Source: an uncultured Bacteroidia bacterium (GTDB taxonomy: Bacteria; Bacteroidota; Bacteroidia; Bacteroidales; UBA932). Taken from it: DNA of 64,000 bases. Location: NCBI GenBank assembly GCA_902768665.1, contig CACXMA010000001.1, forward strand, positions 1 through 64,000, given 5' to 3'. Position 1 is the first letter of the stretch. Every line of letters starts with the position of its first letter. This document shows positions 16,728 through 23,283 of the stretch, one piece after another. The translations under genes were made by a program, and so were the position numbers. The notes below the pieces were generated by a model, which had not been told where the DNA came from, searched no databases, and worked only from the letters and a program-made list of their open reading frames with translations.

Positions 16728-18527
16728 CTAATCCAGTTTCAGTACCGCCATGAACGCGCTCTGGGGCACCTGCACGGTGCCGATCTGGCGCATGCGCTTC
16801 TTGCCCTCCTTCTGCTTTTCGAGGAGCTTGCGCTTGCGGGTCACGTCGCCTCCGTAGCACTTGGCGGTGACGTCCTTGCGGACCTGGCGGACGGTCTCGC
16901 GGGCGATGATCTTGGCGCCGATGGCGGCCTGGACGGCGATGTCGAACTGCTGGCGGGGGATGAGTTCCTTGAGCTTGAGGCAGATCTTGCGGCCGAAGTC
17001 GTAGGCGTGGTCCTCGTGGATGAGGGTCGACAGGGCGTCGGCGGGGTCGCCGTTGAGGAGGATGTCCAGCTTCACCAGGCGGGCCGGGCGGAAGTCGGTG
17101 ACGTGATAGTCGAAGGAGGCGTAGCCCTTGGAGATGGACTTGAGCTTGTCGTAGAAGTCGAAGACGACCTCGGACAGCGGCATGTCGTAGTTGAGCTCGA
17201 CCCGGTCGGTGGTGATGTAGTGCTGGCCGATCAGGGTGCCGCGCTTGTCCATGCAGAGCTTCATGATGGGCCCGTAGAAATCGGACTTGGAGATGATCTG
17301 GGCGCGGATATAGGGCTCCTCGATGTGGTCGATGAGCGTTGCCGGCGGGAGGCCGCTGGGGTTGTGGACGTCGACGACCTCGCCCTTGGTGGTATAGACC
17401 TTATAGGATACGTTCGGGACGGTCGTGATAACGTCCATGTTGAACTCGCGGAACAGGCGCTCCTGCACGATCTCGAGGTGCAGCAGGCCCAGGAAGCCGC
17501 AGCGGAAACCGAATCCCAGCGCGAGGGAGCTCTCGGGCTCATAGACGAAGGAGGCGTCGTTGAGCTGGAACTTTTCGAGCGTGGCGCGCAGCTCCTCGAA
17601 CTTCGAGGCGTCGACGGGGTAGAGACCCGCGAAGACCATGGGCTTGACCTCCTCGAAGCCGGCGATGGCTTCGAGGCAGGGGCGTTCGACATGGGTGATG
17701 GTGTCGCCGACCTTGACCTCGACGGCGGCCTTGATGCCGGTGATGATGTATCCGACGTCGCCGGTGCGGACCTCGCCGGTCGGGTTGAGCTTGAGCTTGA
17801 GGTTGCCGATTTCCTCGGCCTCGTATTCGTTGCCGGTGTTGACGAACTTGACCTTGTCGCCTTTCCGGATGCTGCCGTTGACCACCTTGAAGTAGGCGAT
17901 GATACCGCGGAAGGGATTGAAGACGGAGTCGAAGATGAGGGCCTGCAGCGGGGCCTCGGGGTCGCCTTTCGGGGCGGGAACCTTGTCGACGATGGCGTCG
18001 AGCACGGCCTGCACACCCTCGCCCGTGCGGGCGCTGACGCGGAGTACATCCTCGGGGTCGCAACCGAGCAGGTCGCACACCTGGTCGGTCACCAGCTCCG
18101 GCTGGGCGGAGTCCATGTCGATCTTGTTGAGCACGGGGATGATCTCGAGCCCGTGGTCCACCGCCTGGTAGAGGTTGGAGATGGTCTGTGCCTGGATGCC
18201 CTGGGAGGCGTCCACGACCAGCAACGCACCCTCGCAGGAGGCGATGCTCCGGGAGACCTCATAGCTGAAGTCCACGTGCCCGGGGGTGTCGATGAGGTTG
18301 AGGCGATAGGTCTCGCCGCCGCGCTGGTATTCCATCTGGATGGCGTGGCTCTTGATCGTGATGCCCTTCTCCTTCTCGAGGTCCATGTCGTCGAGGACCT
18401 GGTTCTCCATCTCCCGGTCGCTCAGCGTGCGGGTCAGTTCCAGCAGGCGGTCCGCCAGCGTCGATTTCCCGTGGTCGATATGGGCGATGATGCAAAAATT
18501 CCTTATTGCTCCTTGTAACTTATTCAT
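16728..18527 (-). CDS. lepA: Elongation factor 4 (LepA) with exchanged N-terminus
   Basis: 599 residues, usual length for LepA/EF4, a ribosome-associated GTPase that acts during elongation and ribosome assembly. P-loop AHIDHGKS at about 15-22, [16 protein letters not shown], and the LepA-specific C-terminal domain ([35 protein letters not shown]) are all present. The N-terminus [20 protein letters not shown] has about four residues more than the normal [16 protein letters not shown]. Its first codons (ATA AGG AAT) are AT-rich, unlike the GC-rich codons after the core at 18490-18497. These codons and the upstream promoter come from the integrated element. The original start survives as a stub at 23216-23269. 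Confidence 0.95.
18490..18497. other. attL core of the lepA-integrated element
   Basis: ATGCAAAA, read on the minus strand as TTTTGCAT in codons for Phe-Cys-Ile of lepA. The same 8 bp occur at 23244-23251. Codon style changes at this point from AT-rich (element side) to GC-rich (lepA body), which marks the crossover. Confidence 0.75.
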
Positions 18528-18534
18528 ATTCAAT

Positions 18535-18563
18535 AAAAAAGCCCGCTCGTTATTGAAAGCGGG
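18535..18563 (-). terminator. Terminator-like hairpin in the lepA leader
   Basis: On the minus strand a stem CCCGCT/AGCGGG is followed by a run of six T, ending just before the lepA ATG at 18527. It may end transcripts leaving the element or attenuate the element-borne lepA promoter upstream. Confidence 0.6.
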
Positions 18564-18582
18564 TAACAAATCAGTAACAAAA
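18563..18582. repeat. Putative integrase arm site, left
   Basis: GTAACAAA-tc-AGTAACAAAA: two GTAACAAA units 10 bp apart, about 66 bp inside the core. The same 20-mer with two changes is at 23106-23125. Confidence 0.6.
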
Positions 18583-18619
18583 CGGACAAAAACAAGCCGT
18601 TTGGCGGGCTTTCTAAAAA

Positions 18620-18649
18620 CAAAGGTAGCAAATCTTTCCAGAAATTCAA
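18620..18649 (-). promoter_or_regulatory. Element-borne promoter reading into lepA
   Basis: Minus strand -7 box TACCTTTG at 18627-18620 and TTG at 18649-18647, 19 bp apart. It lies in the left end of the element and points at lepA, about 90 bp from its start codon. Confidence 0.65.
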
Positions 18650-18701
18650 TTAACACCCTTTCAAGTTGCACCGTTTAGGTGTGGGCACTTGCCCTGCAGT
18701 G

Positions 18702-19037
18702 CTATCTAATATTATGCTTTTTCAGTATATCAAGTATTGTTCCCAATTCATCATCTGGTATTGCACTCAAATCTGGTTGTTGGCTCTGGGTGCTTACTTT
18801 TACCTCATTCTGGAAATCCCCGGTTATTGCTTGTTGCTTGGGTATAACATAAGGCAACAGGCGTTCAAGTATCAAAATCCTATCCCTTGCTGACAGTTGC
18901 CTAAAATCTTGCTCTATTTTTTCCCTATTGCCGTCAATAAGTTGTGTTATCCATTCTTTCAAGGTGGTTGTAACCTTGTTTGGTGTGCCCTTTGGCCGTC
19001 CGTTTGGGTTTCCGGTCTTTCCTTTTGGTTGCCCCAT
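18702..19037 (-). CDS. Small DUF5681-like protein
   Basis: 111 residues from the ATG at 19037. The N-terminal KTGNPNGRPKGTPNKVTTTL is the basic signature of DUF5681-type proteins found in phages and mobile elements, some annotated as small terminase subunits. The rest is helical (EKIEQDFRQLSARDRILILE), ending in an acidic tail. I choose 19037 over a TTG 13 codons upstream. DNA binding is plausible from the Lys/Arg/Gly-rich start; packaging is not supported because no large terminase is present. It lies 45 bp downstream of the replication gene. Confidence 0.6.
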   Translation of the reverse strand: MGQPKGKTGNPNGRPKGTPNKVTTTLKEWITQLIDGNREKIEQDFRQLSARDRILILERLLPYVIPKQQAITGDFQNEVKVSTQSQQPDLSAIPDDELGTILDILKKHNIR

Positions 19038-19082
19038 AATAATTGAAATTAGATTGTTAATAATTGTTCTTTTCAATGCTCG

Positions 19083-23054: not shown

Positions 23055-23081
23055 TTTGTTTCTTGTGTTTGTTACCCGGTA

Positions 23082-23113
23082 CAAAGATAGGTTTTTTCCG
23101 GGAAAGTAACAAA
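23082..23113 (-). promoter_or_regulatory. Integrase promoter
   Basis: Minus strand -7 box TATCTTTG at 23089-23082 and TTTG at 23113-23110, 20 bp apart. The TTTG belongs to one GTAACAAA unit of the right arm site. Confidence 0.7.
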
Positions 23114-23125
23114 CGAGTAACAAAA
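23106..23125. repeat. Putative integrase arm site, right
   Basis: GTAACAAAcgAGTAACAAAA: same paired units as at 18563-18582, with two changes, in the same orientation. It lies about 119 bp from the right core. Confidence 0.6.
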
Positions 23126-23153
23126 ATGAGCGAAAAAAGGGTAAAACAAAGGA

Positions 23154-23189
23154 AAAGCGGCCCGCTCCGGAAAGAGCAAAAAGCCGCTT
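23154..23189. terminator. Hairpin at the right end of the element
   Basis: Outer stem AAGCGGC/GCCGCTT with an inner GCTC/GAGC stem. On the minus strand it is followed by TTTTCC. It sits between the orphan lepA promoter and the integrase promoter and could stop transcripts entering from the host. Confidence 0.45.
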
Positions 23190-23215
23190 GTAGTTTGTTT
23201 GTTTTTGGTTTTTCT

Positions 23216-23269
23216 TTACTTGATTATTTCAATGTGGGCAATTATGCAAAAGTTGCGGATACTATTCAT
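23216..23269 (-). pseudogene. lepA: Remnant 5' end of the original lepA
   Basis: Reads [17 protein letters not shown] then stop. The first 13 residues are the canonical LepA start. Codons up to the core are GC-rich host type (ATC CGC AAC); after the core they are AT-rich element type (ATA ATT). It is the piece of lepA cut off when the element integrated at 23244-23251. Confidence 0.85.
23244..23251. other. attR core of the lepA-integrated element
   Basis: ATGCAAAA, identical to 18490-18497. Flanking bases still match lepA codons for R-N-F-C-I-I-A-H-I on both sides, so the element's own att site imitates about 30 bp of lepA. Confidence 0.75.
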
Positions 23270-23275
23270 AACCTG

Positions 23276-23283
23276 CAAAGATA
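23276..23283 (-). promoter_or_regulatory. Orphaned lepA promoter
   Basis: Minus strand -7 box TATCTTTG, 6 bp before the stub start codon at 23269. It now points into the element toward the integrase instead of lepA. Confidence 0.6.

Follow-up and report, generated by a model that had tools for sequence, protein, structure and literature searches.

The lepA locus and its element

The 64-kb stretch of DNA analysed here (positions 1 to 64,000 of contig CACXMA010000001.1, from an uncultured Bacteroidia bacterium; hereafter the window) carries a lepA gene split by a small integrative element of 4,754 bp, which occupies positions 18490-23243 and was inserted at a core reading TTTTGCAT. Between two copies of this core are six minus-strand genes, among them those for a tyrosine integrase (int) and a replication protein (Rep), with a hybrid lepA at one end and the displaced native start of the gene at the other (Table 1). 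In what follows, W designates the element of the window, and L and G numbers designate the compared loci and genomes, respectively.

The core TTTTGCAT is the run common to both junctions and falls on the codons for Phe-Cys-Ile, and the flanks diverge on either side of it (AAT-core-CATC versus AAC-core-AATT). A step in GC content from about 0.62 to 0.42-0.49 matches the element interval, and the first codons and upstream DNA of the hybrid lepA are AT-rich, unlike the host. The N-terminus of the hybrid product (minus strand from 18527) is four residues longer than the start encoded by the stub, and the body of the gene is an open frame with zero stops. The native 5' end left as a stub, an insertion within the first codons and an in-frame N-terminus provided by the element are thus all three present. 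In the source genome, a draft of 26 contigs with a completeness of about 88, lepA occurs as a single copy (one match at 100% identity, the other seven at 25-37%). These data bear out a first-pass annotation of the window, which had proposed that an element splits lepA, that the stub is the canonical start behind a TATCTTTG box, that an 8-bp core is shared by the two junctions, and that the frame is restored with the native promoter and start stranded on the stub; they also support its placement of the crossover in TTTTGCAT. Taken alone, an eight-base core is within chance. The insertion rises above chance because the gene is uninterrupted in all relatives examined (108/108), because a second element with a 23-bp repeat sits at the same codons, and because the predicted join of the element ends was found (see below). 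As for a tRNA gene as the target, ARAGORN finds only a tRNA-Pro at 9159-9233 in the window, and this candidate was rejected.

Table 1. Features of the lepA-inserted element and its junctions
Feature	Position	Strand	Basis or remarks
Hybrid lepA, 599 aa	16728..18527	-	First ten codons and upstream signals from element, body from host; GTP_EFTU, LepA_C
Attachment (att) core TTTTGCAT, lepA side	18490..18497	-	Sequence read; empty sites
U-run ending P1 stem, terminator-like	18535..18540	-	7 nt before lepA ATG
RNA-like unit, ~79 nt	18536..18614	-	P1 stem 18604-18614 with 18536-18546, two inner hairpins; abuts lepA leader
TTTGTTACCCG in predicted loop, complementary to int leader	18560..18570	-	Overlaps arm-type repeat
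Right arm-type direct repeats, TTTGTTAC twice, 11-bp spacing	18563..18581	-	Inside RNA-like unit
Promoter-like box TACCTTTG of RNA-like unit	18620..18627	-	TAnnTTTG type
DUF5681 protein, 124 aa	18702..19076	-	Domain match
Rep, G2P N-terminal family, filamentous-phage type	19083..20069	-	Phage_CRI 75 bits, cut-off 21.7
169-aa protein	20087..20596	-	No Pfam family; adjoins Rep in many relatives
HTH_17 / AlpA-like protein, candidate excisionase/regulator	20598..20879	-	From ATG inside longer listed open reading frame
253-aa protein	21087..21848	-	No Pfam/PHROGs family at E<=0.1
Tyrosine integrase, 398 aa	21858..23054	-	Arm-DNA-bind_5, SAM-like, catalytic (Phage_integrase) domains
int leader site CGGGTAACAAA, complementary to loop at 18560..18570	23068..23078	-	Sequence
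int promoter-like box TATCTTTG	23082..23089	-	Sequence
Left arm-type direct repeats, TTTGTTAC twice, 11-bp spacing	23106..23124	-	Sequence
Terminator-like hairpin between stub and int	23151..23189	-	Sequence, predicted fold
lepA stub, 17 codons, native lepA start cut off by element	23216..23269	-	Sequence; comparison with relatives
att core TTTTGCAT, stub side	23244..23251	-	Sequence read
Displaced native lepA promoter box TATCTTTG, 6 nt from ATG	23276..23283	-	Sequence

Empty sites in related genomes

A search of 200 same-genus genomes (E<=1e-200) found lepA in 178, the source genome included. Besides the two element carriers, 5' ends were examined at 108 loci of these 178, namely 29 returned by the search and 79 fetched by position, the latter taken with unusual match starts first and then down the list; L157 was excluded from every lepA count. 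Upstream DNA per locus had a median of about 900 nt, the shortest being 9 nt. The lepA 5' end was uninterrupted in all 108 loci. The encoded protein begins with MxxxR in 107 of them (106 by script, L105 by eye) and with MDKNNIRNF in one; two loci, L105 (at a contig edge, MKHIRN) and L170 (MDKNNIRN), did not fit the strict pattern for the start and were assessed visually. None of the 108 empty sites begins with MNKLQGA, the start that would have spoken for a native hybrid, none has an integrase match, and none has TTGTTAC within 150 nt upstream. At the position of the core, TTCTGCAT was read in 69 loci, TTTTGCAT in 28, TTCTGTAT in 9 and other sequences in 2. The window stub matches its closest empty site (L012) with five differences over the 48 bases compared, a score shared by L009-L011. 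The predicted structure of an empty site, stub sequence up to the core followed by the lepA body, holds, and is best seen for the second carrier (77 of 81 bases, see below).

A TAnnTTTG box, described as the -7 consensus of Bacteroides (PMC7366714), is found 5-7 nt before the ATG in 43 of the 108 empty relatives, and none occurs within 40 nt in 26 of them. The native lepA transcript would then be near-leaderless. This would be unusual, since 5' untranslated regions shorter than 10 nt make up only about 3.7% of those reported for B. thetaiotaomicron (PMC7366714).

A second carrier and the joined ends of a third element

An element at the same lepA codons was identified in L038 (JAGAFU010000029.1), from a Bacteroidales metagenome-assembled genome (MAG) of water-deer abomasum that belongs to a different species from that of the window; this locus is identical letter for letter to the corresponding stretch of G161. 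It measures 5,402 bp core to core, its junctions share a 23-bp repeat, and its genes follow the same order as in the window (int, a 266-aa protein, HTH, a 174-aa protein, Rep), without a visible DUF5681 gene and with one extra small open reading frame (ORF). The integrases of the two elements are 75% identical and the Rep proteins 65%. The lepA product of L038 starts with MLQTHIRNFC, and the reading frame is preserved in both integrated elements though their new 5' ends differ by 6 nt. The stub side of L038, which includes the native box and ATG, agrees with the empty locus L106 in 77 of 81 bases, and one of the four mismatches falls within the core. A sigma-factor gene adjoins the L038 stub; it lies beside lepA in 21 of the 108 relatives and is 89.5% identical in L106. 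An integrase search for further lepA-inserted elements (E<=1e-110, 398 family genomes) returned only the source genome and G161. Inspection by eye also located a non-coding segment (GGCCTCAGGGCGGCTTCATTTACCTCAACGG...) three times in L038, at about 7600-7740, 8190-8280 and 10800-10980.

A third, 3778-bp contig from sheep rumen (L041, JAFXUJ010000008.1) is about 87-89% identical to the window element. It begins at the end of int, continues with Rep, the leader and lepA-like codons, and passes directly into the region 5' of int, which is the join expected for the attachment site of the free element (attP). Because the contig ends before the int start, a circle and a tandem array look the same in it. 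Its placement in an Elusimicrobiaceae MAG probably reflects the misbinning of a small extrachromosomal contig, with a wider host range as a less likely possibility.

An RNA-like unit in front of the hybrid lepA

Upstream of the hybrid gene, the leader is predicted to fold into a P1 stem in which AGAAAGCCCGC pairs with GCGGGCTTTTT, enclosing two hairpins and followed by a U-run. The TAnnTTTG box that precedes this unit is found in all three lepA-type elements, as are the ATG and frame, the attP form included. Between W and L041 the leader is identical at 115 of 119 positions, and the remainder at 3029 of 3495. Fold energies are unremarkable for W (z -1.5) and L041 (z -1.2) and stronger for L038 (z -3.2). 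Across W, L041 and L038, three sequences only and two of them close, 23 pairs are formed in 98.6% of cells with five two-sided changes, a level reached by 0 of 500 shuffles. The lepA frame is open upstream across the leader in both integrated elements (window 18528-18671, L038 11042-11184), giving ORFs of 647 and 646 aa. An N-terminal extension of LepA from a non-ATG start is formally possible on this ground; such an extension through the leader was disfavoured, as it would overlap the conserved stem.

Comparable units, each with a box, a stem of 75-89 nt and a T-run, lie near the right ends of related elements outside lepA (L074, L075, L076, L149 and L211), whose integrases are 42-49% identical. 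A relaxed scan of both strands found 8 units in 478,883 bases, against 1, 0, 0, 0 and 0 in five shuffles; one of the 8, in L087, looks different and may be due to chance. A stricter first scan had given 3 units, and the criteria were relaxed to admit L149 and the ychF forms seen by eye, with the shuffles rerun. As the criteria were loosened after units had been seen, the count of 8 is not independent of them. No unit was found in 15 of the 22 integrase loci scanned, in several of which the right end of the element may fall outside the available stretch. Among small integrase-bearing records from human faeces, L132-L136 have no lepA-like or ychF-tail motif, and no unit was found in the six scanned of L132-L136, L197 and L198 (L136 left out). 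Rfam searches (E up to 0.5) over L001, L038 and L041 for a family matching the leader returned only a tRNA in L038. A MAFFT alignment of the 8 units gave no consensus pair in RNAalifold, which we attribute to misaligned stems, and the model built from it (R1) was for this reason sequence-only. Applied to 295 genomes of the order, R1 gave 14 matches in 13 genomes, three of them training units. Only one match was taken as credible, an out-of-sample unit in a genome of another family (G762, E 1.4e-9) located beside a truncated Rep and DUF5681; G719 and G797 (by eye) and G798 (protein search) are weaker.

Because box and stem recur in relatives not inserted in lepA, the unit probably did not arise to drive this gene. 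The box facing lepA may instead be the promoter of a small RNA of about 79 nt with its own terminator-like end. The features of a short RNA, a promoter, a terminator-like end and an exposed loop, are found here in the sequence and its predicted fold.

Complementarity to the int leader

A stretch of the unit is complementary to the leader of int in the same element. An exact complement of 10-14 nt is found in 7 of the 7 elements having both parts; L041, in which the int start is missing, was left out, and G762 provides no test because its unit is present and int is missing. The complement sits close behind the int promoter-like box, where it reads CGGGTAACAAA(C) for the lepA lineage, GTAACAAGTT(A) for that of ychF and GGTAACAATTC for L211. 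In L149 the complements are GGTAACAATTCA plus AGTAACAAAATGGC, over the int start codon. When units and leaders were permuted, 12 of 5040 arrangements reached the observed sum, and each of these only exchanged members of the lepA pair or of the ychF trio. In elements of the ychF group, the loop has a further complement at the start region GTAACAAGTTATG of a second, 52-aa gene (MQDKEFF...), located at 4378 in L074 and 4802 in L075 (int-forward coordinates) and present in L076 as well; for this reason the unit may have two targets.

Short direct repeats of arm type also occur at both ends of the element, in keeping with the Arm-DNA-bind domain of the integrase. In L074-L076 and L211 a distance of 35-42 nt separates the complementary loop from these repeats, and the loop sequence (AACTTGTTAC, GAATTGTTACC) is unlike them but still matches the int leader. 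This separation is the best argument for pairing at the RNA level. The proposal that base pairing between the unpaired stretch and the 5' region of int mRNA keeps integrase low is the least certain part of the model and stands close to even odds, slightly on the lower side.

Interpretation and competing explanations

The best overall explanation, to which we give a probability of roughly 0.8, is that a small Rep-bearing integrative element undergoes recombination between its attP and the lepA 5' end and places an RNA-like unit upstream of the gene. Insertion site, core, empty sites, second element, attP join and kept frame can all be read from the compared DNA; the element's own integrase would perform the insertion, and the element presumably still excises. 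Under this model, Int would recombine attP with lepA at the TTTTGCAT core. The attP site would carry the promoter-like unit, an ATG and codons imitating lepA (IRNFCIIAH), and the frame would survive because this imitation extends to both sides of the core. One junction would then hold a hybrid lepA in frame, the other the native promoter with the 17-codon stub. The native promoter would then read only the stub and meet the terminator-like hairpin before int, which has a box of its own. As the RNA unit reads toward lepA, the gene is probably expressed by read-through and, by analogy with IMEVchUSA3 in dusA, LepA synthesis is probably weaker than from the native promoter. On a broader scale, one may tentatively propose, at somewhat less than even odds, that an element clade in this order restrains its integrase with an antisense RNA of about 80 nt beside attP, and that the lepA lineage was retargeted, with one promoter giving both the RNA and, by read-through, LepA, and the near-leaderless native promoter left stranded.

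Several observations weigh against the best overall explanation. The exact core is found in only 28 of the 108 empty sites. The L041 contig, assigned to an Elusimicrobiaceae bin, is without the first ~1 kb of int and thus stops short of a closed circle. The deacetylase gene adjoining the window stub was found in 0 of the 108 loci, within a median of about 900 nt upstream, and stub-side synteny is therefore established for G161 only. For the fold, 62 of 500 shuffles did as well on the count of further pair types. For the pairing, complements between lineages (7-12 nt) overlap those within an element (10-14 nt), the L211 unit, for instance, being complementary to the L149 leader for 12 nt and to its own for 11. 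In W, L038 and L149 the arm repeats fall on the complementary stretch. Windows elsewhere with an equal complement numbered 0/450 in W, 0/520 in L038 and 0/534 in L149, and 5/755 in L074, 26/765 in L075 and 12/750 in L076, some of the latter corresponding to the second gene, of 52 aa. Windows with equal duplex energy were more frequent (W 35/450, L038 202/520, L074 532/755, L075 426/765, L076 443/750, L149 0/534), and this measure singles out the int leader in L149 only. A left-arm control set against the int leader gave, in nt, 9/11 for W, 12/12 for L038, 7/11 for L074, 9/10 for L075, 8/11 for L076 and 10/14 for L149.

Given the overlap with arm repeats and these control complements, DNA arm sites could explain part of the complementarity. 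The RNA-like unit and its match to int might then both be by-products of DNA sites: right-end arm sites for integrase, an inverted one across the int leader serving autorepression, and an ordinary operon terminator. This explanation, which we hold to be a serious one if still short of an even chance, is favoured by the TTTGTTAC repeats at both ends and by the left arm region of L038, which is as complementary to the unit as the int leader is. It does not account for the loop set apart from the arm repeats in L074-L076 and L211, and the G-U pairs and two-sided stem changes point to an RNA.

Plain promoter replacement would make the box an ordinary promoter that keeps lepA on and the hairpin a mere leader structure. 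The first-pass annotation had located a new promoter at 18620-18649, and a conserved TAnnTTTG box does lie in this interval. The box, frame and ATG shared by the three lepA-type elements agree with this view, as does IMEVchUSA3, whose analogous promoter is reported to drive dusA at a reduced level (PMC8409611). The stem, however, ends in a terminator-like U-run just before the ATG, and the same box, stem and U-run occur in L074, L075, L076 (ychF), L149 and L211 without lepA behind. Replacement in this simple form is possible and on the doubtful side, and the first-pass wording stands as to the box and probably not as to a promoter made for lepA.

Insertional inactivation, in which the element silences a lepA gene that is dispensable, would suit the terminator-like stem before the ATG and the lack of an obvious growth defect reported for lepA deletion in E. 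coli (PMC4245954). It is unlikely, since two integrated elements that differ in length, and the attP form as well, retain the ATG and frame, and since the body of the gene is open. Finally, the draft state of the source genome might suggest an assembly chimera or a misplaced contig end, a highly improbable explanation, as a second genome shows this architecture too and a third contig contains the attP join that was predicted.

Gene content and related elements

Pfam and PHROGs scans of the six element ORFs detected no relaxase or transfer genes in these two libraries. Relatives of Rep were found neither in phage records nor in viral contigs, and plasmids yielded one (25.6%). A search of the host genome, whose assembly is about 88% complete, gave no match to a Zot-like morphogenesis protein, and an inovirus helper in this genome was rejected on that basis. 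Between the genes for the 253-aa and HTH proteins is a GC-rich non-coding stretch (window 20880-21000, L038 about 8690-8790) that seems conserved (81% identical block) and is a candidate replication origin or RNA. Elsewhere in the window, a second AT-rich island lies at 45500-47500, with a GC content as low as 0.41.

Sister elements outside lepA (L074, L075 and L076), with integrases about 47-49% identical, lie beside the 3' end of ychF. In L074 and L075, though not in L076, the HFLFNV tail of ychF recurs at the right end. Since these sister integrases use a 3'-end target, the lepA lineage appears to have switched to a 5' end. Six further loci of the same order (L088, L148, L149, L151, L154 and L156) combine a tyrosine integrase with the 169-aa-type protein and Rep, and with DUF5681 in 5 of 6. 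Unlike the window element, 4 of these 6 have a direct repeat that, by coordinates, overlaps a tRNA gene at its 3' end (tRNA-Met in L148, L151 and L156; tRNA-Leu in L088).

Two further arrangements were seen among the compared loci. Paired adjacent related tyrosine integrases occur in L077, L078 and L082-L086, in several same-genus genomes (two end-to-end tblastn matches). In L040 (a Bacteroidetes MAG; 5305-5355 and 11372-12343) an integrase/Rep relative stands among direct repeats of 48-51 bp, several at a spacing of about 76 bp, that look like a CRISPR array.

Comparison with known systems

If the RNA does act on integrase, it would represent a simple excision switch in a common gut order. 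In IS10, the short structured RNA-OUT is complementary to the 5' end of the recombinase mRNA (RNA-IN), overlaps its target gene and acts on a transposase. The unit described here differs in that its target would be a tyrosine integrase and in lying at the opposite end of the integrated element. With inoviruses and inovirus satellites, the window element shares a G2P/Phage_CRI replication protein. Literature searches found no report of lepA as a 5' insertion target, nor of this RNA unit or an antisense RNA against such an integrase; most subscription journals lie outside their coverage, which makes this weak evidence of absence.

Replacement of a 5' end by a mobile element is itself of a known kind. 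The SXT/R391 integrative and conjugative elements insert at the 5' end of prfC, which encodes release factor 3 (PMC8409611), and thus, like the window element at lepA, at the 5' end of a gene for a translation GTPase. SXT is a conjugative element of about 100 kb from Gammaproteobacteria with another integrase and target, whereas the window element has 4.75 kb and a Bacteroidales-type host, places a terminator-like RNA unit between promoter box and gene, and shows no transfer genes in Pfam and PHROGs. IMEVchUSA3 likewise enters the 5' end of dusA and provides a new promoter and N-terminus, and a lacZ fusion is reported to show dusA still expressed at a significantly reduced level (PMC8409611). 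The dusA islands differ from the window element in integrase, hosts and target, and no RNA unit is described for them in the corresponding section of that report. The first-pass view that such integration is rare is fair, with SXT/prfC and IMEVchUSA3/dusA as direct precedents. With the present locus, lepA and a Bacteroidales-type host join the small number of documented in-frame 5'-end replacements by mobile elements. The locus also suggests a possible origin for such promoters, here an RNA-like module present in relatives at ychF and elsewhere. The first-pass interpretation changes in one respect, in that the "new promoter" resembles the promoter of a conserved RNA unit with a terminator-like end, belonging to the integrase clade.

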